A stretch of DNA of 64,000 nucleotides from Pomacea canaliculata (Eukaryota > Mollusca > Gastropoda > Architaenioglossa > Ampullariidae): NCBI RefSeq assembly GCF_003073045.1, contig NC_037595.1:4204227-4268226 (forward strand), written 5' to 3'. Numbering within the stretch: position 1 is the first letter of the stretch; every line of letters starts with the position of its first letter. A program made the translations under genes and the position numbers. The notes under the pieces are model-generated. The model searched no databases. It worked only from the letters and a program-made list of their open reading frames with translations, and was not told where the DNA came from. Positions 6,861 to 31,058 of this stretch are shown piece after piece.

Positions 6861-6977
6861 CGCGAAAAATTGCAGAAAGAGATGTTGATACTGAACTTCA
6901 ACAAATGTCAATATCCGACTTCAGACATCGTTCTGCTTCTAGCCCAAAGAACCAACCTACCAAAGCAGTGGATCAAG
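6861..6977 (+). pseudogene. Orphan homeobox exon (E3 class)
   Basis: The frame beginning at 6861 reads 39 residues that fit homeodomain positions 8-46. Helix 1 contains EMLILNF with Leu16 and Phe20. The turn contains YPTS with Tyr25 and Pro26. Helix 2 has Leu34 and Leu40. Helix 3 begins WIK with Ile45, and is followed by a GTAGGC donor identical to those of the other E3 exons. The closest paralog is the 20.4-kb copy, which shares the LP..WIK motif. The intron breaks off after about 30 bases into unrelated repeat DNA (7008 onward) and no matching E4 exon follows, so this copy cannot make a whole homeodomain in place. Upstream, the N-terminal arm is replaced by a GTGTG-rich tract. Confidence 0.8.
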
Positions 6978-7007
6978 GTAGGCACAGTAAACTGATCCGG
7001 TGTCTAG

Positions 7008-7128
7008 TCACGGCAAAAAGCAGTTGTAAATGTAAAAGTTTTGGAATTAAACTGCCCAAGTCGTATAAAAAAAATATACATGTTTTAAAGCGCAAAAAGG
7101 CTACCAACACACCAAAAAGAAAAGAGAA
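7008..7128. repeat. Short repeat shared with 18975-19056
   Basis: Begins with the CACGGCAAAAAGCAGTTG string and ends with CCAAAAAGAAAAGAGAAC. The same block occurs at 18975-19056, without about 40 internal bases, next to the tail of the dispersed SINE. It cuts into intron 3 of the orphan homeobox exon just upstream. Confidence 0.6.
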
Positions 7129-7235
7129 CTAGTAGGATATAAAAATTTTTAATTTGATAGTAAAGCCCTATCCTCTTTAACAAAGAAAATATTGCCGCCG
7201 ATGGGAGGGACCTAAATAAGGAAAACGGAATTATC

Positions 7236-7375
7236 TGTAAAATACTGACAACGTATAGTCTGAAGCTTCGGACAGGTAATCAAAAAGTGTAAAACAGTAA
7301 AATTTTCCCTACACCAGCTCACTGACTCACTCATTCTGCTTTAAAGAATGGTAACACTACTTGTATCATTTCAGG
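7236..7375 (+). promoter_or_regulatory. Conserved leader upstream of an E1 exon
   Basis: About 140 bases containing TGAAGCTTCGGACAGGTAAT, TTTTCCCTACACCAGC and a run of ACTGACTCACTCATTC, ending in TTTCAG directly before an ATG. Near-identical leaders precede the E1 exons at 18076, 18400 and 18707, and a fragment occurs at about 21050-21148. Such conservation outside coding sequence suggests a promoter, 5' UTR exon and intron end that travel with each E1 exon. The ACTGACTCA strings resemble AP-1 sites; that reading is inference. Confidence 0.45.
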
Positions 7376-7477
7376 ATGGAATTTTTCTGGAACGGAGCCT
7401 TTAGAATTGCCAGAGCAGGACTTCAGTGGATTTTAGACCTGGTAGAACCACATCAGCCACCGCAACAGCAACCATAA
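7376..7477 (+). CDS. E1-class first exon (MEFFW type), diverged
   Basis: ATG directly after TTTCAG, as in the other E1 exons. The first residues MEFFW match the MQFIW start of the 18-19-kb copies. A hydrophobic and basic amphipathic stretch and a Gln/Pro-rich tail follow, and a TAA ends the frame after 33 codons where the other copies have a GTGAGT donor. The following bases stay CAACAG-rich, like the Gln-rich N-terminus of the 20.4-kb homeobox exon. It is probably a decayed member. Function of the E1 peptide is unknown. Confidence 0.5.
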   Translation: MEFFWNGAFRIARAGLQWILDLVEPHQPPQQQP

Positions 7478-7629
7478 CAGCAACCATAACACAAACAACA
7501 ACCACAAGATAAAGAGCAACAGCAACCGCCATAGTGTTCGCCACAGAGCGGTGGCAGAATATTTAGCTACTGCGTCTCCCCCTCCACTTGACACTAGACA
7601 CATTAACTCTTTTTTTTAATTATTTGCCG

Positions 7630-7869
7630 CAAAACCCAGGGGCGAGTGATTCTTCAATGAAGAGGAGGAGGTTGCAAATGAAGAGATCATGAAACGAGGA
7701 TTTTTTTTTAAATGATCACCAGCCTGAGACTAATTCACTGTCCAAGAGGAGGAGGGAGAAAATGAAAATAATGAGCAATGAAAGGTTTTTCTTACTTATG
7801 GCAAGCCTGACAAATGTGCTGCCTCAAGAAATTTTTTATTTATACATAACTACTGCCACAGAACAGTGG
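7630..7869 (+). pseudogene. Two broken copies of the E2 helical domain
   Basis: The first copy starts NPGASDSS and runs through a Lys/Arg cluster. It meets TGA at the position where other copies have Arg in the RNEAFF motif, and its expected acceptor TTTGCAG reads TTTGCCG. The second copy, from about 7741, contains NERFFLLMASLTNVLPQE, a near match to the family motif NEAFFxLMASLTxxLPxE, but is then truncated. Two adjacent decayed E2 exons show that the domain has been copied repeatedly in this locus. Confidence 0.65.
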
Positions 7870-7927
7870 TAGACTTTGGAAATAGTTCATGCATAGACAC
7901 ATTAATTAAGTCTTTAATTGTTTGGAG

Positions 7928-9512
7928 CAAAACCCAGAAGAGCCACAGCCAGGGAGGAGTGATTCTTCCCCATCAAAGAGAGGGAATAAGAATATAAAAA
8001 AGGAGAAAAACAAAGCATTCTGCTCGTTAATGGCAAGTCTGACATCAACACTTCCAGTGGAGATTCTTCAAGATCTCCATCTGCAAGTACATAAAATATG
8101 CCACCAAACCGTGCTTCAATATCAAGGTGCCAAAAAAGCTTCATCTCCCCTTCCTGGAGACCCAACAAAGAAAAATTTGATGAAAAAGCCTCTTTAAGTG
8201 GCGTCTTATAACATCTTATTCATCGACACACATCCTGACGCATTGTCCGCCCCTGTCTGTTGCAGGAACCACCGGCATCGTGCGAAAGATACAGGTGTTT
8301 GTAAATGTAATCACGTGGGCAGTGGTGTATATCTTAATAGGGGCACAGCTCCATTTGTCTTCAAAGCGTTGGAGGGAGAGATATGTCCCTAAAATAGTCT
8401 GTATGTACTTATATTTTCATTAAATTTACCGCATGTAGCTTTTTATATCTTCTGTAGTTGTAAAAAAAGCATAGTGTGACTTTTTAAAAATGTATAAGAG
8501 GTCGTGTTAATGATAATCCAATTGCCTACAATTTATGTTTATAAGGTCTTGCTATGCTCCCCCTTCAAACGGGAAAGAAAAATGGACGAACGAATACAAG
8601 TGAACAGCAACAACAACAAAAACCCCAAAAAATAAAGGAAAGAAAAAAATCAAACAAAGAAAAATTTGATAAACAAGCCTCTTTAAGTGGCGTCTTATTA
8701 CATCTGATTCATCTACACATATCCTGACGCCTTGTCTGCCCGTGTGTCGCAGGACCCACGTCCAGCACTCGTGGAAGGCCGCAGAGGCTGCGCACCCGTC
8801 GAACACAATTCGGCACAGACCAGGTGCGCGCCCTTAAACAGGAATTTAAAAAAAAAATCCTTATCCCAAGCCGGCTGTCCTCAAGAGGCTGGCGAGGAGA
8901 ACAGGACTGCCAGCAACAAAAGTCGCGGTAGACAGTAAACCGGTCCAACGCCTAGTCCAGTAGTTCTCAAAGTATTTCCGACCGCGGACCACTTTACTTA
9001 TGGCTGTGTTTACTTTGCATGCTTGGGAGTGCTGTTTGCTCAGGAAAAGCATTTAATGTTGCTTTTGCTTTCTTTGTGACAGTTTTACTTTGTTAGTCTT
9101 ATTTTGTACTCTGAAAGAAGGACAATGTTATTGTTTACCTGAGAAAGCTCTGATTTATATTGATTTTGATTCTCATCCAAGAGATCAAACGGCTCCTCCC
9201 TAGGACCCATGTTCAGCTGGTTCGGAATAGAGCCAGCAGAAAATGTAAACCATGCGTAGACAGGTTAAGTCTTTTTTCAATCATTTGCAGGAAAAACCCG
9301 ACGAGAATGACTCTCCACGTAGGAGGAGGAGGCGAGACAGGTCCAATGTCTAGTCCACTAGTTGTTAACTAAACAGCCTTGACTTCAGAGACACGTATTA
9401 ACATTGTGGTTCTATCTTCCCGACGTGGTTCTACAATCGCCGGAGGAAAATGCGGAAAGAAGAGGCGCCAGCTTCTACCGCCGCCCGTTCTCGAAAAAAA
9501 AAAATCAGAATA
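7928..9512 (+). pseudogene. Homeobox gene copy with E2, E3 and E4, frameshifted
   Basis: The E2 exon (7928 to about 8162) encodes NPEEPQPGRSDSS, a Lys-rich stretch and the helical domain with AFCSLMASLTSTLPVEIL. E3 (8753-8927) starts after CGCAG and encodes the arm and helix 1 (RRTQFGTDQVRALKQEF). After a run of ten A, the next frame gives NPYPKPAVLKRLARRTG, a textbook turn and helix 2. Two extra A in this run break the frame. E4 (9423 on) encodes TWFYNRRRKMRK with Trp48, Asn51 and Arg53; its acceptor reads CCG instead of CAG. Intron 3 is enlarged by inserted repeat DNA. Its nearest relative is the 12-kb copy. It could be a pseudogene, or an intact gene carrying sequence errors. Confidence 0.75.
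8511..8725. repeat. Duplicated segment (pairs with 33070-33290)
   Basis: Contains ATCCAATTGCCTACAATTTA, a run of CAAACAAAG and CCTCTTTAAGTGGCGTCTTA. The same order occurs at 33070-33290 with a few indels. Parts also occur upstream of the E3 exons at 12.2, 27.9 and 30.7 kb, so this is the native 5' flank of E3 in several paralogs. Confidence 0.7.
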
Positions 9513-10174
9513 ACTCTCTTCGGTAGGGCCGCGAAACAGGATCGCTTTCTTATTCAGTATTTTTTCTTTTTTTTTTTCTTTTTTTTTGAACGTACGTAAA
9601 TTTGTATCATGACGAAAGGTTCGGGATCAATCACAGTGGGCAGCTTTTACAACCACTTGCCGTCTTGGACCTGTCCTGTGGCCGGTGACCCCTAACCCAC
9701 GATCTGAGCAGAAACGGTGTCTCTGTTTTTCGAAGCTGTTCCCCAGAGGATGGAATACAACTCTGGGGTCCTCGTTGAAGAAAAATGTGGTCACCATAGT
9801 AAGTTGCCAGCTGCAGAGCACCTTGACCTGAAAGTCATGCTTAGCTGTGGAAGTCGTAATTTACATATTTTACTACTTTACCTTCCAAATGTACATCTAG
9901 AAAAAACAACTCACGAATACCTTGCATGCTCTGTGAGTGTGTATGTGTGCGTGTGTGTGTGTGCGTGGGACATACACCAATAACGTCGTTATGACTCAGC
10001 ACAAAGGGGAGGCCAACTGCAAACTCTTATCTTGACTAGTAAAAGGAACCTTGGAGAACAAATTCCATCATCCGACATATGGATACGCAATGTAACATAC
10101 ATGTAACCGCCTTATTAAAATGCATCTTTAATATAAACACCGAGGGAGGTGTACTTTGAAAGATTCACCCGTAG

Positions 10175-10333
10175 GATCAGAGGAGGAGGAGGTATGAGTC
10201 TAGAGCTAGAAACAATGAGGCCTTCTTCCTCCTAATGGCAGGTCTAACTCATGTGCTTCCTGAAAATTATTTACAGGGAGATCTGCATCTTTTAGTACAT
10301 AGTGTTCGCCACAGAGCGGTGCAGAATATTTAG
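10175..10333 (+). pseudogene. E2 helical-domain exon with a one-base deletion
   Basis: Reads an Arg cluster, then RNNEAFFLLMAGLTHVLPEN and DLHLLVHSVRHRAV, matching the E2 domain through its two predicted helices. The frame then ends at TAG. The homologous stretch at 7540-7570 has one more G (GGTGGCAG rather than GGTGCAG), which would continue as VAEYLA. One missing base therefore separates this exon from an intact one. It lies 50 bases before the intact homeobox exon at 10384. Confidence 0.65.
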
Positions 10334-10383
10334 CTGCTGCATCTCCCCCTCCACGCGACCTTGTCTGCCCCTTTATCTTGCAG

Positions 10384-10965
10384 AACCACCTGGCAGAAGG
10401 CGTCGGTCACCATTGCCCCCCTGGAAGAAAACAATTCTTGTCACCTTTTATAACGTCGAGCCTTTCCCACGCCCGGAAACAGTGGAAGTATTACATAAAG
10501 GAACTGATTTGAGTCATCAAGATATCAAAGTAAGCACAGTAAACAGTTATAATACCTAGTCCACTATTAAACAGTCCTGACTTCAGAGTTTCTGTAATAT
10601 GATTTTTTTTACATGGTGGGGTTGTTAGCCCTACCACAACCTATTTTACCTCTAGGTGAGGTGTCCACCTTAGTCGCCTCTTACTGGCTGGATGGCAGGG
10701 ACCCTATTCTTACAATGCTTGCTATGCAAGCATACCCCAGGGTCCCACAGGGAGCCTGACCAGAGACACGTATTAACATTGTTGTTCTTCCTTCCAGCGC
10801 TGGTTCATCAATCGGCGCGCAGCGCAACGTCGCCGTGCAAGACACCTTCGTCAGCGGGCAGTTCACCAGCAAAATCGGCGCGCAGCACAGAGGCCTGCAA
10901 GACACCATCATCAGCGTCCGATTCAACAGCAAAATCGGCGCGCAGCGTTGGTTTATCGTCTATGA
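10384..10965 (+). CDS. Homeobox gene, intact homeodomain (E3 + E4)
   Basis: E3 (10384-10529) follows TTGCAG and enters with two bases of a codon. It reads PPGRRRRSPLPPW, helix 1 TILVTFYN, the turn FPRPE, helix 2 VEVLHKG and LSHQDIK, then a GTAAGC donor. E4 (10798-10965) follows TTCCAG and gives RWFINRRAAQRRR, then TGA after 55 codons. Joined, this is a gap-free 60-residue homeodomain with Leu16, Tyr20, Phe25, Pro26, Leu34, Leu40, Ile45, Trp48, Phe49, Asn51 and Arg53. Residue 50 is Ile, unlike the Gln or Lys of most classes. There is no TALE insertion and no POU, LIM or paired partner domain in view. The tail repeats an NRRAA motif. Probably a nuclear DNA-binding protein; target and class unknown. 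Confidence 0.85.
10596..10762. mobile_element. Insertion inside intron 3 (also at 24712 and 28018)
   Basis: A block containing GGTGGGGTTGTTAGCCCTAC, CTAGGTGAGGTGTCCACC and AAGCATACCCCAGGGTCCC sits between the two halves of the conserved intron 3. The same block is in intron 3 of the 24.5-kb homeobox gene, and its 3' half (28018-28105) is in the broken 28-kb copy. A shared insertion site shows that these paralogs arose by duplication after the insertion. The element class is not recognised; it may be SINE-like. Confidence 0.6.
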
Positions 10966-11059
10966 GACAGTGAAGTGTTACTCTGCTTAAAAATACTACT
11001 ACTTTAGCGCCTCCAGAACCACGTGAGTACTTTAACAGGCTCTGGAGTGAGTGAGTTTT

Positions 11060-11650
11060 GTGCATCAATCACCATCTTTTGTGTAAACGTATTCCCTTAC
11101 TTATTTTTCCATTTTTTTCTGTTTTACTTGTATTGTTTCTTGACCTAAAGACTATAAGTGTGAGTTGTCAATAAATGTTTCATCATCTTTTGTTTAGTAA
11201 GTGCTTTTCTTGAGAGATCTTACTCTTTTGTTTGTTTCTATGTTTTCAGCATTCGTAATTCTTGTCCAAGATTTACCGCTAAAATCTGAAAGTGTGTAGA
11301 GCTCGTGGTATGATCACATACAACTGGTGCAAGATGACAGTAGCAAACTTAGTGATAAACATGTTAGCGTCCTCGCAAGAAATTTCTCCAACTCTAGAAT
11401 CGCGCGAGGGACTTGGGGGTGGAGACTGGCAGGACAGCTTCACAATTGTGACGTTAAGGCCAGAACAACAGGCCCGATGCAAGTTAGATAAATAGAGGTG
11501 GGCAGTGGTCAGCGAAAGGGGACAATGAAGGGACGCCATTTTGTCCGTTTTGACGAATTGACAGTGAAACGATTTTTTTTGGTCAACATTTGTGACAAAT
11601 TCTTTGCAGTAAATAAATACATGTATTAAAATCATGTATATCCTTTGCTT
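11060..11650. repeat. Duplicated segment (pairs with 32790-33840)
   Basis: Starts ATCAATCACCATCTTTTGTG and includes CAAGATTTACCGCTAAAATC and AGGCCAGAACAACAGGCCCG. The same landmarks recur in order at 32790-33840, where about 400 bases of the 8511-type segment are inserted. The block also carries the tail of an E1 exon (CCAGAACCAC before GTGAGTAC near 11025), which recurs at about 32768. Confidence 0.75.
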
Positions 11651-11714
11651 CTATATAATAAACTTCATCTGGTTGTTTCATCATCTGGGTGGGGTTGGGG
11701 GAGAAGATGGCTTA

Positions 11715-11904
11715 AAAAAAAAAAAAAGAAAACAGGCATTTCTTCAGACTTCTTAGATCTATCACTGACGTTTTATCTGAGATTGTATTGGATCTCCACA
11801 TGGAGCTACATAATGTATCTTATAAGTTTCTAAAGAAATTGGATGCTTCTCATCTGAGAGAGCCAACCCCTCCCCAGGACACAGTTACAGCTGGTTCCCA
11901 GTAG
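11715..11904 (+). pseudogene. B-type helical-domain exon, degenerate
   Basis: In the frame ending at TAG 11902 it reads NRHFFRLLRSITDVL, DLHMELHNVSYKFLKKLDAS and a TAGSQ end. It is a close copy of the better-preserved ORF at 33854-34069. A run of A (LKKKK) at the start replaces the MWRRWIKKK opening and shifts the frame, so no start codon is joined to it. Confidence 0.6.
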
Positions 11905-11955
11905 AGCCAGCAGAAAAGGTCAACCATCATAAAGCCAGTAACTAATTGTTTGCAC

Positions 11956-13163
11956 CAAACCCAGAAGAGTCACAGCGAGGTAGGAGTGATTCTGCCCCAT
12001 CAAAGAGAGGGAAGAAGAATATAAAAAAGGAGAAAAACAAAGCATTCTTCTCGTTAATGGCAAGCCTGACATCAAAACTTCCAGTGGAGATTCTTCAATA
12101 TCTCTATCTGCAAGTACATAAAATATGCCACCACACCGTGCTTCAATATCAAGCTGCCGAAAAAGCTTCATCTCCCCTTCCTGGAGACTAATCAAAGAAA
12201 AATTAGATGAACAAGCCTCTTTAAGTGGCGTCTTATAACGTCTTATTCATCTACACATATCCTCGTGGAAGGTCGCAGACGGTGCGTAGGCCACAGAGGC
12301 AAATGGGGGACGACCAGCTACGACCTTGGAAGAATCCTTTACACAAAATCGCTATCCCGATATGGCTGCTCGCGCTGATATTGAAAGGAAGACAGGACTG
12401 CCAGCAGCCAGGGTCCGGGTAAGCACAGTAAATAGTAAACGCCTAGTCCAGTGATTCTCAAAGTATTTCGGACTGCGGACCACTTTACTTAAGTACAAAA
12501 TATGGCGGACCACCAAGGCCTAAAAATCACTCTGTATTATATGAATTTCAAAAATCAAAATGACAATCTCAGGTATGGCCGCGAAACAGGATCACAGCCC
12601 TGACTTCAGTGTTGCTGACCTCCTTCTGTGTCTGATGATATTTGTATGTAAATATATCTGAAATGGAAGGGTGCTGATTCCTTAGGATTGTGGAATTGGG
12701 AATATAAGTGTTAATCATATATCGACAACGACAACGACGACGACGGCTATTTTTATCTTATTATTATTATAGCACTACGACTCAAAGAGACACGTATTAA
12801 CATTGTGGTTCTTCCTTCCAGACCTGGTTTTCAAACCGCCGTCGTAAACTACGACAGAGGCCGCCTGCTCGACGAAAAAGAAAGAAAGCCGCAAAGTTCC
12901 GTCTACATTTGTCAGGTAGAGACGCGAAACAGGATCGCTTTCTTATTCAGTATATAAAACTATATATATATATTTTTTTTTTGAACGTACGTAAATTTGT
13001 ATTCAAAAGAAGAAAACAACAGAGACCAGAATCCAGTTTCCTTCGTCCAATTGTTTCCCGGTTAAAAACAACACTAAAGCACGTCTTACTTTTGTTTGAA
13101 CAGTTTCCATCCATTAAGCGGGCAGCTTTAACAGCCACTTGTCCTGTGACTGGTGACCCCTGA
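11956..13163 (+). pseudogene. Homeobox gene copy, frameshifted and missing an E3 acceptor
   Basis: E2 (about 11956-12190) is intact through NPEESQRGRSDS and AFFSLMASLTSKLPVEIL. E3 (about 12258-12418) reads RRPQRQMGDDQLRPWKNPLHK. One base run later, in another frame, it reads NRYPDMAARADIERKTGLPA and RVR, then a GTAAGC donor. The break falls in the same A-run as in the 8.8-kb copy. Compared with that copy, about 45 bases holding the E3 splice acceptor are deleted. E4 (12822 on) follows TTCCAG, reads TWFSNRRRKLRQRP, and stays open to 13163 through low-complexity sequence. Residue 50 is Ser. Intron 3 carries a GCGGACCAC-containing hAT-like fragment, also present in the 8.9-kb copy. Confidence 0.75.
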
Positions 13164-13681
13164 CCCAAGGTAATTTTTGTAATTTGTTCAAAGAAATTGT
13201 CACAAGAGTGTGTGAGGTGGACTTGACAGCAGCATGCCCTTACATTTATAGGGACACCTGTGCGTACCATGTGCAGGTATACAAATTTGAAAAATGGCTA
13301 TCGAGCGTGCGCTCTGACATTCAGAAAATAGAACCATAAAACATCCTTTCTTCCTAATCCAAAGACATGATGCTTGAGGAGAAGAAATCGATCATCGCTC
13401 ATTAGTTCGCCCAAGTAAGTCAAGGCTAATGACTCCAACATGACATTCACATCACCTGTCCGAAATAACGGTTTCATCAGACATGGTCCTTGATAAAAAA
13501 ACTTCTTTTAGATGTGTGAATGTGGGAGGGAGGTATACTTCAAAACATAAAGTATTTTCTTATTATCTGTCGAAATTGATAATTGATCCCCCTCAGCACA
13601 GAAAAAATTATTATTGTGCTGATTCCTTAGGATTGTGGAATTGGGAATATAAGTGTTAATCATATATCGACAACGAGAACG

Positions 13682-13711
13682 AGGTGGTTCTGCAAACGCC
13701 GGGCAAAGTGA
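13682..13711 (+). pseudogene. Decayed recognition-helix exon (E4)
   Basis: Reads RWFCKRRAK and then TGA. It aligns to the 23612 exon (TWFCNRRAKW), with the essential Asn51 changed to Lys and Trp56 changed to a stop. The leader (CATATATCGACAACGA) is shared with 12.7, 23.6 and 26.9 kb. It has no E3 partner. Confidence 0.7.
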
Positions 13712-14652
13712 TGGCGGAGGAGAAGAGCTACCTCCGCCGCCAGAAAAATCCTTACAGTAAGATTTAGAGGTAGGCCTGCGAAACAGGATCGCTTTCTTAT
13801 TCAGTAGATATATATATATATTATTTGAACGTACGTAAATTTGTATTCAAAAGACTAACAGAGTCGCCATTTTATATGAATGTTATAATTATGCAGCTAA
13901 TATTCTTTGGTTTCCATCCGGCCAAATCCCACCTATCCTTCGTTAATACAAAAGGAATGTACACACATAAAGAGCTGGCTCTTCAAACAGGTGTCACATG
14001 CAGAGAAACTAATGTTGTATCACGACAAAATAGCTTGCCCATCAAACATATGCCACTTGCAGAGAAACTACCATAGAGACCAGAATCCAGTTTCACAATC
14101 TATTGCTAATTCTAACACTTTTAGGCCTTAAATCTAGTTAGGTAATCAGTTTGATAGAAACACAGTGTACAACATACATTTATAAATTTTAAAAACCGAA
14201 GTTGTTTTAAACTGTTGAAGCCAAATTTCATTCCTCACAATGTTTCGTAAACGCTTGTGCAAGACATCTAAATATTAGTTTAGGAAACATTTGAAAAGAA
14301 GCACGTTTCTAAGGTTGCTTTTCATAACAGTTTTAAAAGTTAGAAACATGTTTTGCCACTAACCCCTAATAGGAGTGCCTGCTGGAGACTTTTCTATTCG
14401 GGAAAGAGCATAGGTGCCCCCGACAATCAACTGTAATCAGCTTGATATCTTATATCTTATATCAGCTGAAACTCTGTGGATCTACACATGGAGATACACC
14501 ATGTTTGCTATAATGCGGTAAAGAAATTCAAGGCTTCTCTTCCTGAAGAGCCAACGGCTCCCCAAGGCCCAAGTTCAACTGAATAGTACCAATGTACCCA
14601 CACACACATGTGCATACCTAGACACATTCAGTCTTTTTTAAATTATTTGCAG

Positions 14653-18075: not shown

Positions 18076-18196
18076 ATGCAATTTATATGGAGGGCGGCTA
18101 TTCGTCTCTATCGCTACATTGCGGGCTGGGTCTGGGGCCAGGAGGAGCCCCAGCAGCCTCAGGCGCAAGCTCCACCAGATCCAATACCACAACCCG
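18076..18196 (+). CDS. E1-class first exon a
   Basis: ATG immediately after TTTCAGG, 40 codons plus one base, then a strong GTGAGTAC donor. It encodes MQFIWRAAIRLYRYIAGW, a hydrophobic and basic amphipathic helix, then a Gln/Pro-rich tail. Paralogs b and d keep the frame and the residue character with different bases, which supports this frame over the overlapping ATGACTACAC frame. The phase-1 end (CCC G) fits the two-base start of E3 exons such as 22415. The peptide has no recognised domain. Confidence 0.6.
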
Positions 18197-18257: not shown

Positions 18258-18706
18258 TCTGTAAAATACTGACAACGTATAGTCTGAAGCTTCGGACAGG
18301 TAATCAAAAAGTGTAAAACAGTAAAATTTTCCCTACACCAGCTCACTGACTCACTCATTCTGCTTTGAAGAATGACTACACTACTGGTATCTTTTCAGGA
18401 TGCAATGCATATGGAAAGCGATTGTGCGGCTCTTCCGCTTTGTGACAAGATGGGTGTGGGGCCAGCTGGAACACCAGCCACAAGCTCCACCAGCTCCACC
18501 CGGTGAGTACTTTAACACGCTGCGGTCGTATTTTTGTTGCCAGTGTTATTTTAGATGTACGTGTCTGTAAAATACTGACAACGTATAGTCTGAAGCTTCG
18601 GACAGGTAATCAAAAAGTGTAAAACAGTAAAATTTTCCCTACACCAGCTCACTGACTCACTCTACTTTGAAGAATGACTACACTACTGGTATCGTTTCAG
18701 AATACA
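18258..18706 (+). repeat. Tandem leader units in front of E1 exons
   Basis: The leader described at 7236-7375 occurs here twice in tandem (18258-18399 and 18565-18706), about 307 bases apart, each followed by an E1 exon. A third, internally deleted leader is at about 17850-18075. Each unit carries the ACTGACTCACTC run and ends in TTTCAG. Confidence 0.65.
18400..18502 (+). CDS. E1-class first exon b
   Basis: Same leader, start context and donor (CCCG then GTGAGTAC) as copy a, 324 bases away. It encodes 34 residues beginning MQCIWKAIVRLFRFVTRW, then Gln/Pro. Substitutions relative to copy a are mostly conservative (Arg/Lys, Tyr/Phe). Confidence 0.6.
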
Positions 18707-19687: not shown

Positions 19688-19808
19688 ATGCAATTTATAT
19701 GGAGAACAATTCGGACACTGTTTCGATATGCAGCCCGATGGGCATTGACACGGCTGGAGCTCCAGCCACCCCAGCCATCCCAGGAGCCACAGCCAAATCC
19801 TCCTCCCG
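19688..19808 (+). CDS. E1-class first exon d
   Basis: ATG after TTTCAGC, 40 codons plus one base, then GTGAGTAT. It begins MQFIWRTIRTLFRYAARW and continues with a Leu/Glu turn and a Gln/Pro-rich tail. It shares AARWALTRLELQ with the 23921 and 27264 copies. It is the last E1 exon before the homeobox exons at 20.4 and 22.4 kb. Confidence 0.6.
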
Positions 19809-20399: not shown

Positions 20400-20754
20400 C
20401 AACAGCAGCAACAACAGCAACAGCCACAACCACAAGAGCAACATCAACAGCAACCACAGCCTGCACCTCAACGCCACACCAAAACAAAGCTGAAAAGATG
20501 GAAAAAGATCATGCTGATTCAAAGTTTTAAGAAGTGCCACTACGCGACTTCCGACGTCCTGTTAGTACTTTCAAGACGAACAAAGCTACCTCAAAAATGG
20601 ATAAAGGTAGGCACAGTAAACAGGTCCGGTGTCTAGTCCACTAGTTGTTAACTAAACAGTCTTGACTTCAGAGACACGTATTAACATTGTGGTTCTTCCT
20701 TTCCAGCGCTGGTTCTGAACCAGAAGTTACTGGATGAGAAGGCAACAGCAATAA
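20400..20754 (+). pseudogene. Homeobox gene with Gln-rich arm and stop in helix 3
   Basis: E3 (20400-20606) is open for 69 codons: a Gln/Pro-rich N-terminus, RHTKTKLKRWKK, helix 1 IMLIQSF, the turn HYAT, helix 2 VLLVLSRRT, and LPQKWIK before a GTAGGC donor. All hydrophobic core positions (11, 16, 20, 25, 34, 40, 45) fit a homeodomain. E4 (20707-20754) starts RWF after TTCCAG, then TGA replaces residue 50, and the rest (TRSYWMRRQQQ) has lost Asn51. The gene as read cannot make a DNA-binding helix. E3 also starts in phase 0, unlike most E3 exons. The 6861 exon is its sister. Confidence 0.75.
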
Positions 20755-22414: not shown

Positions 22415-22713
22415 AACCACCAGCCAGAAGAAGGAGAGCAAGAAGAATGAAACCGTGGCAAAAGAAGCTTTTGGAAAAGAGTTTCAATGCAACCAAATTT
22501 CCATCGATTTCAACATTAAAGAAGCTTTCCAGAAGGACAAGACTATCCACAAAACGGATCGAGGTAGGCACAGTAAACAGATCGAATGCCTAGTCCACTA
22601 GTTGTTAACTAACCAGCCCTGACTTCAGAGACACGTATTAACATTGTGGTTCTACCTTCCAGAGGTGGTTTGCGAACAAGCGGGCACAGGTACGGCGCCG
22701 ACAGAGGCAATAA
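22415..22713 (+). CDS. Homeobox gene, intact homeodomain (copy A)
   Basis: E3 (22415-22563) enters with two bases after CGCAG. In the homeodomain frame it reads PPARRRRARRMKPWQKK, helix 1 LLEKSFN, the turn KFPS, helix 2 LKKLSRRT and LSTKRIE, then GTAGGC. A 99-base intron follows. E4 (22663-22713) reads RWFANKRAQVRRRQRQ and TAA. All homeodomain core and DNA-contact positions are present (Leu16, Phe20, Leu34, Leu40, Ile45, Trp48, Asn51, Arg53). Residue 50 is Ala and residue 52 is Lys. The longer ORF through E3 is in a different frame and is a shadow. Together with the Arg-rich arm, the product should bind DNA in the nucleus. Confidence 0.88.
22564..22662 (+). other. Conserved intron 3
   Basis: This 99-nt intron is nearly identical in diverged paralogs. 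Counted by hand against the 30.9-kb copy it differs at 8 of 99 positions. Landmarks are GTAGGCACAGTAAACAG, GCCTAGTCCACTAGTTG, ACTTCAGAGACACGTATTAA and CATTGTGGTTCTACCTTCCAG shortened to its last bases. It separates homeodomain residues 46 and 47 in every gene of the array. Confidence 0.8.
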
Positions 22714-22839
22714 GGTCAGAGGAAATGTAATTCCAAGAGTTGTCGGTATTATAGATATGTTATTAAATTAAGGAAAGCAAGAAATAAGCATAAATAAGTA
22801 CAAGTACTGAGTTGATCACGAAATATTAATCTTGTAAGG

Positions 22840-23297: not shown

Positions 23298-23611
23298 TTG
23301 TAAGGTATAAAAAGAAAATGTAACAATATTTAAAAATGCACAACAGCTTAAAAACATTGAGGTTTGATTCTACAATAGGAAAGCTTAACTCTGTATGACA
23401 TTACTTTTGTATGCCATTTAGAAGGTAGCTTGGTACACATTTTTTTTTCCTAGAGTTTAAATAGTTTTCGTATGCTTTCAGTTTTGTTGACCTCCTTCTG
23501 TGCATGATGATATTTGTATGTAAATATATCTGAAATGGAAGGGTGGTGATTCCTTAGGATTGTGGAATTGGGAACATATGTGTTAATCATATATCGACAA
23601 CGACAATGTCG

Positions 23612-23689
23612 ACGTGGTTCTGCAATCGAAGGGCCAAGTGGCGGCGGAAGAGAAGAGCTACCTATGCCGCCAGAAAAAACTCAAAATAA
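23612..23689 (+). CDS. Orphan recognition-helix exon (E4 type), copy A
   Basis: Reads TWFCNRRAKWRRKRRATYAA and ends at TAA after 25 codons, an intact helix 3 with Trp48, Phe49, Cys50, Asn51, Arg53 and Trp56 plus an Arg-rich tail. The usual TTCCAG acceptor is missing: the upstream sequence ends CGACAACGACAATGTCG. No E3 exon lies between the hAT element and this exon. It is probably a fragment, unless an unseen donor splices to it. Confidence 0.6.
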   Translation, partial: TWFCNRRAKWRRKRRATYAARKNSK

Positions 23690-23920
23690 GAATTAGAAGT
23701 TGGCCCGCGAAACAGGATCGCTTTCTTATTCAATATATATATATATTGAACGTACGTATATTTGTATTCAAAAGACGAAAAGAATCGCCATTTTATATGA
23801 ATGTTATAATTATGCAGCTAATATTCTTTGGTTTCTATCCTGCCAAATCCCACCTATCCTTCGTTATAAAAATATATAAATATTCATTATCATCATCATC
23901 ACTACTGGTATCTTTTCAGG

Positions 23921-24034
23921 ATGCAGTTCATATGGAGAGTGTTTCGTTACGCAGCCAAATGGGCATTGACATGGCTGGAGCTCCAGTCACCAGAGCAGGA
24001 GAATTCACGCCCACCTCCTAGACACATTAATTAA
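23921..24034 (+). CDS. E1-class exon e (no donor)
   Basis: ATG after TTTCAGG, as in the other E1 exons. It starts MQFIWRVFRYAAKWALTWLE. It runs on through QENSRPPPRHIN to TAA because the GTGAGT donor is replaced by TAGACACATTAA, the 3' end of the intron in front of E2. A deletion appears to have fused E1 directly to the end of intron 1. Confidence 0.5.
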   Translation: MQFIWRVFRYAAKWALTWLELQSPEQENSRPPPRHIN

Positions 24035-24056
24035 GTCTTTTTTAAATTATTTGCAG

Positions 24057-24200
24057 ATAAACATAGATGAGCCATCTCCCGGGGGTAGTGATCCTCCCCT
24101 CCCCAAGGGGGGAAAAAGAATCAAAAGAAGGATGAAATCAAACACTTTTTTAAGTTGAAGAAATCTCTCATCAACTGTCTGCCTGTGGAGATAGGGATCT
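24057..24200 (+). pseudogene. E2-class exon, NIDEPSPGGSD type, copy A
   Basis: Same sequence and same six-T frameshift as at 15546. It lies 22 bases after the E1 exon e frame ends, reached through TTATTTGCAG. Confidence 0.6.
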
Positions 24201-24472
24201 CTGTTTTCTGCTTTCTTTGTGACAGTTTTATTTTGGTAGTCTTCTTTTCTACTCTGCTTGTCTTCCATAAATCATTCGTGTGTTATATGGGTGTTCTTAT
24301 AATAGTAGGTTGAAATATGCACATGTATAATGTCTTCTTTTTTTTAAAAGTTTGAAGTACAAGCCAAGTGCACAATTTTTTCTTTAGGATCAGGTTAAGT
24401 TAATTTAATGTACCCCCACACACATATGCATGCCTAGACACATTAATTAAGTCTTTTTTTAATTATTTGCAG

Positions 24473-24998
24473 ACCGATACCAACGAGCCACATGAAGCCA
24501 GAAGGCGCCGTCGACTGCGGCCATGGCAGATACAACTGCTGGATGTTAGCTACAAGAAGTCGCAATACCCATCGCATGTCACAGTGGTGACATTAAGTCG
24601 CAGAACGCACGTCAAAGTGCAGAAGATTTACGTAAGCACAGTAAACAGTTATAATACCTAGTCCACTATTAAACAGTCCTGACTTCAGAGTTTCTGTAAT
24701 ATGATTTTTTTTACATGGTGGGGTTGTTAGCCCTACCACAACCTATTTTACCTCTAGGTGAGGTGTCCACCTTAGTCGCCTCTTACTGGCTGGATGGCAG
24801 GGACCCTATTCTTACAATGCTTGCTAGGCAAGCATACCCCAGGGTCCCACAGGGAGCCTGACCAGAGACACGTATTAACATTGTTGTTCTTCCTTCCAGA
24901 GATGGTATATCAATAGGCGCGCTCAGCAGCGTCGTGCGCAACATCGCCCTCAACGTCGCCGTCGCCCTCATCAGCGCCGTCGCCCACCTCGGCCTTGA
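24473..24998 (+). CDS. Homeobox gene, intact homeodomain, Tyr49 type
   Basis: E3 (24473-24631) starts in phase 0 after TTTGCAG and encodes TDTNEPHEARRRRRLRPWQ, helix 1 LLDVSYKK, the turn QYPS, helix 2 VVTLSRRT and VKVQKIY, then a GTAAGC donor. E4 (24900-24998) follows TTCCAG and reads RWYINRRAQQRRAQ, an Arg/Pro/His-rich tail and TGA. The joined homeodomain has the correct 60-residue spacing, with Trp48, Tyr49 in place of Phe, Ile50, Asn51 and Arg53. Intron 3 carries the same inserted element as the 10.5-kb gene, so the two are sisters. This E3 begins a whole codon, so it would need a phase-0 upstream exon or a start we do not see. Confidence 0.82.
24712..24862. mobile_element. Intron 3 insertion, second copy
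   Basis: Same block as 10596-10762 (GGTGGGGTTGTTAGCCCTAC to CCCCAGGGTCCC), at the same place in intron 3. Confidence 0.6.
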
Positions 24999-25091
24999 GG
25001 TAAGAGGAAATGCAATTTGAGGTGTCTCTACTACTCCAGTCTGTCTTTTCACTGTAATGGAAAGAAGGGGTGGGAGCCTTCGTAGCCCCAA

Positions 25092-25096
25092 TCATT

Positions 25097-25146
<50 letters not shown>

Positions 25147-25147
25147 G
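25092..25147. repeat. TTG microsatellite
   Basis: An uninterrupted TTG run about 300 bases after a homeobox stop codon. Unit B carries a shorter run at 28342-28386, the kind of length change expected between duplicated copies. Confidence 0.9.
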
Positions 25148-25419
25148 ACTGATGACAGCGTCCTTGTAGGAGACACGAAAGCTACAATGCCTGGACTGCT
25201 TGTGTGATGGATCGTATGCGGACGGCAATACACGTGCTTGTCTACAAGTCTTGCAGTCTGTTGTCTACAACAAGCTTTACAGTCTATTGTGTACAACAAG
25301 CCTTACTTATCCTAGTTTAGATGAGACGAGATACTATAACATAGAAGCTCTGTTTTCTTTCTCATCCTGTGAGCTCTGTCTTGCACGCATCTGACCACTG
25401 ATTTCCATTCACTCCATTC

Positions 25420-25644
25420 ATGGAGAAAATAAACCAAATTGGCAAAGGTACTTTCTTCATGTTGCTTCTAATTTTGTGTACAGCCTGGGGACAAAAAACT
25501 ATAAAACCTGACGGCTGTGTTTACTTTTGCATGCTTGGGAGTACTGTTTGCTCAGGAAAAGCATTTAATGCTGCTTTTGCTTTCTTTGTGAAAACTGTGT
25601 GCGCTTTTGTGTGCGTGTACGTGTCCGCGAGAGGTGAAAAGTGA
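25420..25644 (+). CDS. Possible small secreted-like ORF, copy B
   Basis: Second copy of the 22070 ORF, intact, with NQIG for SQRG near the start and one Val to Ala change near the middle. The same doubts apply: it may be a promoter segment with a chance reading frame. Confidence 0.25.
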   Translation: MEKINQIGKGTFFMLLLILCTAWGQKTIKPDGCVYFCMLGSTVCSGKAFNAAFAFFVKTVCAFVCVYVSARGEK

Positions 25645-25762
25645 AAGAGTGCGGCAAGCGTGGTTTACATGTAGATGTTCACACACGCTCGCATACACAT
25701 TTAACACTCTCTTCCTAAACGTTACAACATCCTAAAGCCTTGTCTGCACCTTCCTATCGCAG

Positions 25763-26061
25763 AACCACCAGCCAGAAGAAGGAGAGCAAGAAGAATGAAA
25801 CCGTGGCAAAAGAAGCTTTTGGAAAAGAGTTTCAATGCAACCAAATTTCCATCGATTTCAACATTAAAGAAGCTTTCCAGAAGGACAAGACTATCCACAA
25901 AACGGATCGAGGTAGGCACAGTAAACAGATCGAATGCCTAGTCCACTAGTTGTTAACTAACCAGCCCTGACTTCAGAGACACGTATTAACATTGTGGTTC
26001 TACCTTCCAGAGGTGGTTTGCGAACAAGCGGGCACAGGTACGGCGCCGACAGAGGCAATAA
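25763..26061 (+). CDS. Homeobox gene, intact homeodomain (copy B)
   Basis: E3 (25763-25911) and E4 (26011-26061) repeat the 22.4-kb gene with no visible coding change: PWQKK, LLEKSF, KFPS, LSTKRIE, then RWFANKRAQVRRRQRQ and TAA. Splice sites and the 99-base intron are also preserved. The identity shows a recent duplication; two copies of one homeodomain can share a role or differ in dosage. Confidence 0.88.
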
Positions 26062-26186
26062 GGTCAGAGGAAATGTAATTCCAAGAGTTGTCGGTATTAT
26101 AGATATGTTATAAATTAAGGAAAGCAAGAAATAAGCATAAATAAGTACAAGTACTGAGTTGATCACGAAATATTAATCTTGTAAGG

Positions 26187-26644
26187 CAGGGATGCCCAAC
26201 CTACGGCCCGCGGGCCATATTCGGCCCGCGAAACTTCTGCCCACAGTGCAGGAAATCGGCATGTTAGTAATAAAAAACCGAAAAAAAACGAAAAAAGCGA
26301 AGAAGTATTTATCCCTACGTAAGGGCGTCTCTCAATCTTTTTTTCGATGGACGAACATTTCAATTCTGTGCTCCGACTTGGTGTCTCTTCATGCAGCCGG
26401 ACATTCAGAAGTTGGTTTCGGGAAAACAACTTCAAATATCCCACTAATTACTACATAATTAATGGTAAGTACAACTTGGTTCTAATAAAAAATGGTATCT
26501 GCTCTATTTTTTTTTTTTTTTTTTTTTTTTTTTATTTTTGCGGTGAAGTGGCCCGCGACACGGCTGTCCGAAATGGATATGGCCCGCGACACGGCTGTCC
26601 GAAATGGATATGGCCCGCAGGCCGAAAAAGGTTGGGCATCACTG
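26187..26644. mobile_element. hAT element, copy B
   Basis: Same element and same TTGTAAGG target-site duplication as 22840-23297, carried along by the tandem duplication rather than inserted independently. Confidence 0.9.
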
Positions 26645-26955
26645 TTGTAAGGTATAAAAGAAAATTAACAATATTTAAAATGCACAACAGCTTAAAAACA
26701 TTGAGGTTTGATTCTACAATAGGAAAGCTTAACTCTGTATGACATTACTTTTGTATGCCATTTAGAAGGTAGCTTGGTACACATTTTTTTTTCCTAGAGT
26801 TTAAATAGTTTCGTATGCTTTCAGTTTTGTTGACCTCCTTCTGTGCATGATGATATTTGTATGTAAATATATCTGAAATGGAAGGGTGGTGATTCCTTAG
26901 GATTGTGGAATTGGGAACATATGTGTTAATCATATATCGACAACGACAAATGTCG

Positions 26956-27033
26956 ACGTGGTTCTGCAATCGAAGGGCCAAGTGGCGGCGGAAGAGAAGA
27001 GCTACCTATGCCGCCAGAAAAAACTCAAAATAA
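26956..27033 (+). CDS. Orphan recognition-helix exon, copy B
   Basis: Repeats 23612-23689 (TWFCNRRAKWRRKRR, TAA) inside unit B. Confidence 0.55.
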   Translation, partial: TWFCNRRAKWRRKRRATYAARKNSK

Positions 27034-27263
27034 GAATTAGAAGTTGGGCCCGCGAAACAGGATCGCTTTCTTATTCAATATATATATATTGAACGTACGT
27101 ATATTTGTATTCAAAAAGACGAAAAGAATCGCCATTTTATATGAATGTTATAATTATGCAGCTAATATTCTTTGGTTTCTATCCTGCCAATCCCACCTAT
27201 CCTTCGTTATAAAAATATATAAATATTCATTATCATCATCATCACTACTGGTATCTTTTCAGG

Positions 27264-27377
27264 ATGCAGTTCATATGGAGAGTGTTTCGTTACGCAGCCA
27301 AATGGGCATTGACATGGCTGGAGCTCCAGTCACCAGAGCAGGAGAATTCACGCCCACCTCCTAGACACATTAATTAA
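27264..27377 (+). CDS. E1-class exon f (no donor)
   Basis: Repeats 23921-24034 inside unit B, again without a donor. Confidence 0.45.
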   Translation: MQFIWRVFRYAAKWALTWLELQSPEQENSRPPPRHIN

Positions 27378-27399
27378 GTCTTTTTTAAATTATTTGCAG

Positions 27400-27545
27400 A
27401 TAAACATAGATGAGCCATCTCCCGGGGGTAGTGATCCTCCCTCCCCAAGGGGGGAAAAAAAAGAATCAAAAGAAGGATGAAATCAAACACTTTTTTAAGT
27501 TGAAGAAATCTCTCATCAAACTGTCTGCCTGTGGAGATAGGGATC
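27400..27545 (+). pseudogene. E2-class exon, NIDEPSPGGSD type, copy B
   Basis: As 24057, with further indels in the run of C and A after SDPP, so the frame is broken twice. Confidence 0.55.
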
Positions 27546-27930
27546 TCTGTTTTCTGCTTTCTTTGTGACAGTTTTATTTTGGTAGTCTTCTTTTCTACTC
27601 TGCTTGTCTTCCATAAAGCATTGGTGTGTTATATGGGTGTTCTTATAATAGTCGGTTGAAATATGCACATGTATAGTGTCTTTTTTTTAAAAAAGTTTGA
27701 AGTACAAGCCAAGTGCAAAATTTTTTCTTTAGGATCAGGTTAAGTTAATTTAATGTACCCCCACACACATATGCATGCCTAGACACATTAATTAAGTCTT
27801 TTTTTAATTATTTGCAGACCGATACCAACGAGCCACATGACCATTCAACCTGAGGGCGATGAGGTCGTAGGAAATGTAATTCCGGTCCAATGCAAACAAA
27901 GAAAAATTTTATAAACAAGCCTCTTTAAGT

Positions 27931-28174
27931 GGCAGAAGGCGCAGACGATTGCAGCCATGGCAAACAGACATGCTAGTACGAAGCTTCAACATGGCTGAGT
28001 ACCCTAGTCCTGCTACTTAGTCGCCTCTTACTGGCTGGATGGCAGGGACCCTATTCTTACAATGCTTGCTAGGCAAGCATACCCCAGGGTCCCACAGGGA
28101 GCCTGACCAGAGACAAGTATTAACATTGTTGTTCTTCCTTCCAGAGATGGTATATCAATAGGCGCGCTCAGTAG
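27931..28174 (+). pseudogene. Broken homeobox gene, truncated E3 and stop in E4
   Basis: E3 starts GRRRRRLQPWQTDMLVRSFN and reaches the turn EYPS, then stops at TAG 28018 where the coding sequence is joined directly to the 3' half of the intron-3 insertion element. Helix 2, the donor and half of the intron are deleted. E4 (28145-28174) reads RWYINRRAQ and then TAG where the unit-A gene has CAG. Both lesions kill the gene. The surviving E3 half is a different homeodomain from that at 24473, so unit B was not a plain copy of unit A here. Confidence 0.8.
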
Positions 28175-28341
28175 CGTCGTGCGCAACATCGCCCTCAACG
28201 TCGCCGTCGCCCTCATCAGCGCCGTCGCCCACCTCGGCCTTGAGGTAAGAGGAAATGCAATTTGAGGTGTCTCTACTACTCCAGTCTGTCTTTTCACTGT
28301 AATGGAAAGAAGGGGTGGGAGCCTTCGTAGCCCCAATCATT

Positions 28342-28385
<44 letters not shown>

Positions 28386-28653
28386 GACTGATGACAGCGT
28401 CCTTGTAGGAGACACGAAAGCTACAATGCCTGGACTGCTTGTGTGATGGATCGTATGCGGACGCAATACACGTGCTTGTCTACAAGTTCTTGGCAGTCTG
28501 TTGTCTACAACAAGCTTTACAGTCTATTGTGTACAACAAGCCTTACTTATCCTAGTTTAGATGAGACGAGATACTATAACATAGAAGCTCTGTTTTCTTT
28601 CTCATCCTGTGAGCTCTGTCTTGCACGCAATCTTGACCACTGATTTCCATTCA

Positions 28654-29370
28654 CTGCAAGTTTCCGTGACAGGATGGGATGTTGGGATGGAATGTGGGGT
28701 GGGGACTGGTGCCACTGCACCCAAGCACACCGTGACGTCACTACGTGTTTCATGGCTTCCGGAAGTAATAAACTGCACAGGTGCTTGATCCTTGCACCCC
28801 TTACCTGGAAATATTTATGAGCGAAGGTCAAGCAAAGGTGTGCTGAGCGCTGGCTTTTGTTCTATCGATTACCGATGGCGAGGTGGTCAATGTTTTATTA
28901 CTGACAATAAAGCCTAGACAACCAAGTAGACTTCGTAAACCTGGTTTGTCATACTAGTCAAGTATAGTAGTCTTCATAATGTAACAAGACCTTCAACAAA
29001 GCCAAACAATTCAGCAATAAAAGGCTAACAGAAGATTATTCCCTCGCAAATCACCTGCGGCCTGTTGAACTGACCTCCAGCGTCTGGTCACAGACTCACC
29101 TGATTCTGTACGACGACCAGAGGTTGTATATCACTGAACCCTAAGGTGCTCCCGTGCTCACTGGAGCGTCGACTCAGGTATAAAGAAGTGCTGAGCATTG
29201 CATCTTACATACCTCCAGGGTGGGTGGGGTAGAGTCAAGGGACGCAACCGGTCCCTCAAAAAAAGATATTAAGGCAAGAATGTGAACATCGTTCACTGTC
29301 AGTATAGAGTTGTCCCCTCCCCTCTCCAAAGCCGAACATCTTCCTACGCCACTGAACACGTGTTAAACAT

Positions 29371-29404
<34 letters not shown>

Positions 29405-29835
29405 ACATACACACCTGTTATTGCAGCAACACACACACACACACACACCTGTTATTGCAGCAGTTAGGAGGAAGTGTGAGGGACGAGACTCACTAGAGGG
29501 TCTGCCTTGTGGTCTACATCCCATTGGTACCATGAAACACACTTGTAATGTTTTACAGTTAAACGTATCCTTGTCGCTCTCAACATAATTCAGTCCTATC
29601 TTTCTGACATCATAGTGATTTCTAATCTCATAACAGAGTAGCCGAGATAACCGAACCAATCACAAGTGAGCGTACTGATCGCATGAGTAATCGTAATCTT
29701 GACTGATCACATGCCGGTAACCATAACCGTGTTGTCACATGCCAGTAACCATAACCATCACGTTTCATCAGCAATTAATCAGTAGACAGTAAAGTACATA
29801 GAGGTAGGCTTGGTCATTACTGAAGTTCACTCTCT
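28654..29835. other. Non-coding stretch with TC/AC microsatellites
   Basis: No exon is recognised. TC and AC runs lie at about 29371-29445, with a duplicated ACCTGTTATTGCAGCA string. An ORF at 29836-30066 has no recognisable features and is probably chance. Confidence 0.5.
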
Positions 29836-30106
29836 TTGACTCCCTTTGATTTCTGGAATTTCAGGAACCATTTGCATTACAGGTTACTGGATGTCCATCT
29901 GGAACATCATCTAGCTATGGTTTGGGAGGCACATCCAGAATATATCTTTTTCCTTTTGGACCTCCAACACCAAAAGATTTTTGTTGGGTTGTTTATAACA
30001 GGATTTTTGATTAATGTTTTAATTTTTCAGATCTCTTATCTTTTTCATTTTTGTAGTAAAAATTGACTCTTTTGAGCAAGTTAATGACAGATGATTTATT
30101 TTGTAT

Positions 30107-30690
30107 TTGAGAATTCACGCCCGCCTCCTAGACACATTAATTAAGTCTTTTTTAAATTATTTGCAGATAAACATAGATGAGCCATCTCCCGGGGGTAGTG
30201 ATCCTCCCCTCCCCAAGGGGGGAAAAAGAATCAAAAGAAGGATGAAATCAAACACTTTTTTAAGTTGAAGAAATCTCTCATCAACTGTCTGCCTGTGGAG
30301 ATAGGGATCTCTGTTTTCTGCTTTCTTTGTGACAGTTTTTATTTTGGTAGTCTTCTTTTCTACTCTGCTTGTCTTCCATAAATCATTGGTGTGTTATATG
30401 GGTGTTCTTATAATAGTAGGTTGAATATGCACATGTATAATGTCTTCTTTTTTTTAAAAGTTTGAAGTACAAGCCAAGTGCAAATTTTTTCTTTAGGATC
30501 AGGTTAAGTTAATTTAATGTACCCCCACACACATATGCATGCCTAGACACATTAATTAAGTCTTTTTTTAATTATTTGCAGACCGATACCAACGAGCCAC
30601 ATGACCTTTCAACCTGAGGGCGATGAGGTCGTAGGAAATGTAATTCCGGTCCAATGCAAACAAAGAAAAATATTTTATAAACAAGCCTCT
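30107..30690. repeat. Third partial copy of the duplication unit
   Basis: Matches 27344-27930: GAATTCACGCCC, the E2-class exon at 30177 with the six-T frameshift, GCATTGGTG-like spacer and ACCGATACCAACGAGCCACA. It is followed by a different E3 exon. Confidence 0.8.
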
Positions 30691-30757
30691 TTAAGTGGCA
30701 TCTTATAACATCTTATTCATCAACATAGACATCATGTAGCCTTGTCTGCGCCTGCAG

Positions 30758-31058
30758 GACCACAAGCAATAAGAAGAGTAAGAAGAAGAAAAAAATATTA
30801 AACTGGCAAAAAGTGTTACTCAAGGAGCAATTCCAGAGAACGCGGTTTCCTGGGCGAAAAGCCATGGAAAGACTTCGGCGACGGACACAACTATCCAAAA
30901 AAAGGATCGAGGTAGGCACAGTAAACAGGTCCAATGCCTAGTCCACTAGTTGTTAACTAAACAACCCTGACTTCAGAGACACATATTAATATTGTGGTTG
31001 TTCCTTCCAGCGATGGTTTTTCAACCGCCGGGTGCAATGGCGGCGCCGACAGGAATGA
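30758..31058 (+). CDS. Homeobox gene, near-intact (Phe50 type)
   Basis: E3 (30758-30911) follows CTGCAG. From KKKKILNWQK it reads helix 1 VLLKEQFQ, the turn RFPG, helix 2 AMERLRRRT and LSKKRIE, then GTAGGC. E4 (31011-31058) reads RWFFNRRVQWRRRQE and TGA. The homeodomain core is complete. Entering E3 with the usual phase, the frame is open until a run of seven A just before ILNW, where one missing A causes a stop; eight A would join the Arg-rich arm to helix 1. It is either an inactivated copy or a homopolymer read error. It is most like the 22.4-kb gene (shared KRIERWF). Confidence 0.75.

Follow-up and report, generated by a model that had tools for sequence, protein, structure and literature searches.

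Lineage-specific arrays of PRD-class homeobox genes are a known kind of system. The ETCHbox/Obox genes of mammals are Crx-derived PRD-class arrays, and the sections consulted of their description present tandem daughters of a conserved parent with asymmetric divergence, many losses and pseudogenes, and one daughter set with about 67 loci (PMC4904359). The novel lophotrochozoan PRD clades I-VI are divergent, taxon-restricted homeodomains mostly without a companion domain, with few genes and an obscured parent, according to the part of the report consulted (PMC5322547). Among Pax genes, excerpts of the literature describe fly eyegone (eyg) as having a paired domain with an intact RED half and a truncated PAI half, together with a complete isoform in Tribolium (PMC3082225), and report eyegone homologues in molluscs (PMC5333810). 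Here we analysed a 64,000-nucleotide stretch of the genome of the snail Pomacea canaliculata (NC_037595.1, here called C6, positions 4,204,227 to 4,268,226; hereafter the window), which carries an array of short homeobox exons named E3 and E4. We consider it probable, though well short of certain, that these exons belong to a multi-cluster, lineage-specific PRD-class family derived from a Pax-eyegone-like gene, in which exchange homogenises the non-coding DNA and selection keeps the homeodomains distinct.

Compared with the mammalian arrays, the snail family has as its putative parent a Pax gene, not Crx, with no paired domain carried over, and its introns are homogenised; from the lophotrochozoan clades it is set apart by description only. 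With Pax-eyegone it shares a PRD-class homeodomain, a paired domain represented at the parent locus by its C-terminal half, and intron and flank DNA common to parent and array. In contrast, the array lacks a paired-box exon on C6, and the identity of family E3 exons to the parent is 20-57% (20 units compared). Within the partial texts available from the open-licence PMC literature, we found no publication dealing with this array or with a homeobox expansion derived from eyegone, nor a description of this variant, a mollusc Pax-derived array without paired domain and with homogenised introns.

The original prediction had read split homeodomains from the window, and this signal is real: in the splice-consistent frame, E3 encodes residues 1-46 and E4 residues 47-60. 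When joined exons were scored against the Pfam homeodomain model PF00046 (curated cut-off, 22.9 bits), four of six window stretches passed, namely 10384+10798, 22415+22663 and 24473+24900 (scores in Table 1) and 30758+31011 (34.6 bits, read in the homeodomain frame). The two that fell below, 20400+RWF (19.4 bits) and 6861 alone (21.5 bits), are both incomplete. Three of the four intact pairs (10384, 22415 and 24473) were scored and all pass, as do the parent and three of three family products from other loci. As predicted, no TALE-type three-residue insertion between helices 1 and 2 was seen in the four passing window products, whose residue counts equal the PF00046 profile counts (56 or 57), with no net insertion. 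In the genome-wide PF00046 search, 2 of at least 149 matches lie inside the window, in the E3 exons at 22432 and 25780.

No recognised class had been assigned to these homeodomains. We found that they are of the PRD class and that the family has introns in common with a Pax-eyegone-like gene at C11:10.29 Mb. A GT donor between residues 46 and 47 is carried by 38 E3 exons; this intron site is common to PRD-like genes of this genome and is a marker of the PRD class. The best Protein Data Bank rows for three family products were DUX4, Pitx, Pax6, aristaless, paired and goosecoid, and for one of the three a two-engrailed-domain chain ranks seventh. We rejected an affinity with DUX: although DUX4 gave the top rows for the three family homeodomains, its rank is the sum of two homeodomains, which scored singly 32.7 and 37.0 bits against the family product L014, versus 46.9 for Pitx2/3 and 46.2 for Pax6, and no double homeobox was seen in the snail family.

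The C11:10.29 Mb locus carries the family donor and a canonical PRD homeodomain, and paired-box exons and a matching E4 (VWFSNRRAKWRR) surround it. Pfam matched PAX positions 55-125 there at 3.7e-29 and the homeodomain at 4.5e-24. At E up to 0.001 the genome gave 11 PAX exon matches. None of them lies on C6 and none on C11 is of the PAI half, the sole C11 match being the RED half of the parent; a paired domain in the same gene, as in a Pax gene proper, was not found in the array family. The 352-bp intron of the parent after residue 46 is homologous to the array introns; it matches 15 window pieces (72-97%) and further pieces at 30 other loci of the family. The end of the parent's upstream intron also matches family loci. 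No match to the parent intron was obtained at 1e-3 in the fetched non-family homeobox loci, many of which comprise about 400 bp around the exon and cover the introns in part. We take this non-coding homology to be the decisive link between the family and the parent. Both introns around E3 are shared with it, which shows, as far as genomic DNA speaks, that the family arose by DNA duplication of the parent's homeodomain-coding end. With the parent identified by shared introns, the origin is traceable without relying on a tree of 60 residues. In a homeodomain tree of 63 rows, one change separates the 37 family rows (E3 rows from which short and identical ones had been dropped and to which seven had been added), the parent, its branch being of zero length, sits next to C11 members where a fork is unresolved, and a derived clade of 21 rows (support 100/99) contains the five window units that were tested.

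We then compared coding and non-coding divergence among 38 complete E3 exons, in 179 pairs with alignable intron starts; these pairs share units and are non-independent. The mean proportion of differing sites (p) was 0.118 in introns, whereas in exons it was 0.699 at synonymous (pS) and 0.413 at nonsynonymous (pN) sites. Among the 175 pairs with differing exons, pS exceeded intron p in all 175 and pN in 174. An upstream comparison covers 40 of the 179 pairs, since acceptors were found automatically in some units only. Codons for the same residue differed in 1587 of 3073 cases, and fourfold sites in 759 of 1466. The introns at 10530-10797 and 24632-24899 match from GT to AG, whereas their E3 exons differ at 73 of 135 sites (Fisher 1e-39, with 2/268 intron differences entered as a cautious value and, as in all our Fisher tests, with sites treated as independent). 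A similar contrast was seen between two copies of the start exon, E1, that lie 324 bp apart (18076 and 18400; Table 1). Positive selection alone, with nonsynonymous exceeding synonymous change (dN over dS), was rejected as the cause, because point mutation under such selection would leave synonymous sites at the intron level, and synonymous sites also exceed intron divergence.

Codon models gave omega values of 0.26 (16 units) and 0.44 (13 units), and fixing omega at 1 was worse by 54.8 and 15.0 log units, respectively; these runs used 29 of the 38 units and omit nine that are duplicates, short or partial, or, in the case of 30780, frame-broken. Exchange has left a visible trace in a copy of the 24473 unit, whose outer flanks are 98% identical to the original and which has a composite stretch in place of the original E3. 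This stretch holds an 87-nt E3 fragment (27931 in Table 1) that resembles an E3 about 1.1 Mb away. One recent E3 replacement between clusters is visible here, and either copy could be the changed one. A process that fits these data would combine duplication and ectopic exchange between clusters, which would homogenise introns and flanks, with selection that would keep exons distinct and purge the exchanges overwriting them; its outcome would be exons far more divergent than introns, synonymous sites included. A direct precedent for such a process exists in gibbon L/M opsins, whose introns are homogenised and exons kept distinct, according to the text consulted (PMC3213168).

Several points weigh against this reading. 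The omega values come from one tree, though exchange between units is likely. Intron and exon distances correlate (Spearman 0.69, 179 non-independent pairs), which fits co-inherited units with fast exons as well as conversion, and the exon tree is compatible with one clade for the three units with a 268-bp intron (approximately unbiased test, p 0.20); these two results keep fast exons a live rival. About half of the window exons are dead. The split that sets the family apart from other homeodomains is supported at just 58/42 and appears in 66% of 200 bootstrap trees built on 45 columns, so that the tree is in keeping with descent and no proof of it. The name eyegone for the parent is putative and is taken from the partial paired domain and from a presumed resemblance of its homeodomain to that of fly eyegone. 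Finally, the genes of the family are predictions from genomic DNA.

How many units are intact bears on a first alternative, that the arrays are the debris of a once-working eyegone-derived expansion, now pseudogenes kept by segmental duplication. The original count of ten or more units is valid only with relics included. In an exon-by-exon audit of the window, about half of the exons are relics and just four E3/E4 pairs are intact and spliceable: 10384/10798, 22415/22663, 24473/24900 and 25763/26011. The second and fourth of these are a recent duplicate (their E3 exons are identical over the 132 nt compared). Of ten E3 copies claimed, 10384, 20400, 22415, 24473 and 25763 have an AG acceptor, a GT donor and an open frame, but the other five are broken: no AG stands at the claimed start of 6861, 12258 and 27931, a stop in the homeodomain frame lies just upstream of 12258, 27931 reads 29 residues to a stop, and the frame breaks at an A-run within the homeodomain in 8753 and between acceptor and homeodomain in 30758. 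Because acceptor and homeodomain of 30758 are in different frames, the 30758/31011 pair is not an intact gene piece. Six of the 12 claimed E4 copies are not broken, whereas six are damaged or lack an AG acceptor: CG replaces AG before 9423, 13682, 23612 and 26956, and stops occur after three residues in 20707 and after nine in 28145 and 13682. Some sound exons are paired with a dead partner, as is the E3 at 20400, whose E4 at 20707 reads RWF-stop. The claim that longer out-of-frame open reading frames (stop to stop) conceal the exons held for five of eight E3 copies checked (6861, 8753, 20400, 22415 and 30758) but failed for 10384, 24473 and 25763. These broken or unspliceable exons, and the orphan E1, E2 and E4 exons that are common in the arrays, are what debris would look like; nevertheless, we regard this explanation as unlikely, given that the 25 sources examined contain 38 open E3 stretches of at least 117 nt with a GT donor, that omega is 0.26 and 0.44, and that the locus L019 has an intact, spliceable gene.

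A second alternative is exon-targeted accelerated mutation, in which units duplicate whole, introns show the true young age, and the coding parts of E1, E3 and E4 mutate faster, synonymous sites too. It would account for the correlation of intron and exon distances and for the closest comparisons: in 13 close pairs, 26 of 246 fourfold sites differ versus a mean intron p of 0.011, and loci L009 and L012 differ at 13 of 132 exon sites versus 1 of 480 in the nearest flanks (all downstream windows to about 840 bp beyond the exon contain 13 differences in 1257 sites, with one 60-bp window holding four). However, another exon of the same arrays, E2, is not hyperdivergent, with an exon p of 0.063 (8 copies) and 0.053 (10 hand-chosen copies) and a better flank p of 0.19 and 0.21 for the same sets. 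Omega below 1 also disagrees with it, at least one E3 was apparently swapped between clusters rather than mutated, and we know of no precedent for homeobox genes; we therefore think it quite doubtful. That the intron itself is constrained as a regulatory or RNA element while exons age normally is very improbable, for although ~65 bp at its start and ~30-50 bp at its end are most often kept, the middle differs freely in many copies, and identity spans the whole 268-bp intron, the E1 flanks and 3 kb that C11 also carries, at 91.6%.

Returning to homogenising exchange under selection, a stronger form of it would make the arrays a homeodomain-diversifying system, in which DNA-recognition exons are cassettes between homogenised introns, exchanged between clusters a megabase apart, with diversity kept by selection or raised by exon-targeted mutation. 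We offer this as a speculation with little weight behind it. If true, a single snail would thereby have dozens of short homeodomain proteins that differ from one another at residues 47, 50 and 54. On the main reading, homeobox exons that stay distinct amid homogenised DNA in one genome make selection on transcription-factor repertoires testable in sister snails, and the family is an asymmetric homeobox radiation in a mollusc, with its parent identified by shared introns.

Table 1. Exons, introns and duplicated segment of the homeobox array, in window coordinates (HD, homeodomain)
Feature	Position	Strand	Remark
E3 intact, homeodomain 1-46	10384..10529	+	AG acceptor, GT donor, open; 32.2 bits PF00046 with E4
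268-bp intron between HD residues 46 and 47, with a near-identical counterpart at 24632-24899	10530..10797	+	
E4, homeodomain 47-60 then Arg/Gln-rich tail	10798..10965	+	
E3 intact	22415..22563	+	Audit and genome-wide PF00046 match
E4 intact, RWFANKRAQVRRRQRQ-stop	22663..22713	+	Joined pair 41.5 bits
E3 intact, starting in phase 0 from a different 5' acceptor	24473..24631	+	
268-bp intron, nearly same sequence as 10530-10797	24632..24899	+	
E4 intact, RWYINRRAQQRR...	24900..24998	+	Joined pair 38.5 bits
E3 intact, duplicate of 22415	25763..25911	+	
E4 intact, duplicate of 22663	26011..26061	+	
E3 relic without 5' end	6861..6977	+	
E3 relic, frame broken at A-run inside homeodomain	8753..8927	+	
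E3 relic, stop in homeodomain frame, no acceptor here	12258..12418	+	
E4 (TWFSNRRRKLR...), AG present, partner E3 a relic; approximate exon end	12822..12974	+	
Open E3 starting in phase 0, lead rich in Q	20400..20606	+	
E4 relic, RWF-stop	20707..20718	+	
E3 fragment in copy whose outer flanks match 24473 unit	27931..28017	+	94% identity to L070 E3, C6:3.155 Mb
E4 relic, stop after 9 residues	28145..28174	+	
E3, open homeodomain, out of frame with acceptor (A-run)	30758..30911	+	
E4, RWFFNRRVQWRRRQE-stop	31011..31058	+	
Orphan E4 without AG acceptor; approximate end	9423..9572	+	
Orphan E4 relic without AG acceptor	13682..13711	+	
Orphan E4 following truncated parent-type intron stretch (23477-23608)	23612..23689	+	
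Orphan E4, duplicate of 23612	26956..27033	+	
E1 start exon MQFIWRAAIRLYRY..., phase 1 end at GTGAGT	18076..18196	+	
E1 tandem copy	18400..18502	+	Versus 18076 copy: exon 26/103 aligned sites differ, flanks 1/216
E1 with donor	19688..19808	+	
E1 relic without donor	23921..24033	+	
E1 relic without donor, duplicate	27264..27376	+	
Duplicated segment	22067..24495	.	Copy at 25417-27840, 98.5% identity

The anatomy of a whole unit could be read at L019 (C6:3.12 Mb), where a complete three-exon gene has E1, E3 and E4 in order with AG/GT signals and introns of 2286 and 97 bp; its predicted product of 99 residues consists of an N-terminal MQFIWR exon and the homeodomain. No complete E1-E3-E4 set of this kind was verifiable among the window units. 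E1 has its ATG start after an AG, reads MQxIWR... and ends in phase 1 at GTGAGT, and E3 ends in phase 0 at residue 46; the five sound window E3 exons start in phase 1 (10384, 22415 and 25763) or phase 0 (20400 and 24473). Ten E1-like matches, nine of which lie on C6, came from a genome-wide search that accepted E values up to 10. A search for protein homologues returned 19 candidates from a large protein collection, none at E up to 0.1, with a query that carried one extra G at the E1/E3 junction. The conserved E2 exon (FFxLMASLT/FFRLLRSIT...) occurs at window positions 8009, 12036, 14716, 31168 and 33896 and is well kept between C6 and C11. Against Pfam, two of three E2 copies gave no row and one gave just rows far below the cut-off. 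E2 ends in phase 1 but the copy that was read does not start in phase 1, so that it would not join E1.

The family forms several clusters, mainly on two chromosomes, of which the window is one. The genome-wide PF00046 search, a lower bound with 150 of 271 candidates scored, gave homeodomain stretches of which many end at residue 46 and which are grouped on C6 and C11. The family was sampled from 20 regions around homeodomain groups and from further regions added later, and the donor GTnnGCACAGTAAAC is common to most units in the sampled regions. This motif was found at 67 places versus 11 for the reversed control (C6 has 47 of them; C11 has 13, one of which is the parent), and the acceptor motif, with two mismatches allowed, at 26 places versus none for the control (23 of 26 on C6); both are motif censuses and not counts of working genes. 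These results support the proposal of an Obox- or Rhox-like homeobox expansion that is lineage-specific and split after residue 46.

To examine what the products might do, we collected the starts of family E4 exons and kept 21 strings, 20 of them distinct, from 32 (ten chance matches and the parent were left out). R53 is present in all 21 and N51 in all except that of L071; the search pattern demanded W48, allowed N, K, D or E at 51, and missed orphan E4 exons without an acceptor (13682 has K51). Residues 47, 50 and 54, which contact DNA bases in homeodomains, vary widely among these starts. The small putative proteins would be imported into the nucleus, where their homeodomain would bind DNA with specificity altered at these three positions, and perhaps they compete with or replace eyegone-type factors. 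Obox and Rhox genes act in the early embryo or germ line of mammals. By analogy with the Crx-derived genes, in the sections consulted of their description (PMC4904359), the early embryo or the gonad and germ line could be candidate expression sites.

Some further observations concern the surroundings of the arrays. Window positions 3675-6601 align with C11:13.69 Mb (L025) over 2978 bp at 91.6% identity, so that arrays on two chromosomes share long flanks. Direct repeats at 35497-38739, spaced about 0.93 kb and 87-89% identical, also match C6:6.258 Mb (L013). Isolated family acceptor and donor motifs occur at C6:19877110 and C6:19879449, 11 Mb from the other C6 clusters. At L026 (C11:17.173 Mb), three consecutive homeodomain-like stretches within about 500 bp are apparently unrelated to the array family, and an open frame of 1904 residues at C12:15325885-15328287 matches the homeodomain four times.

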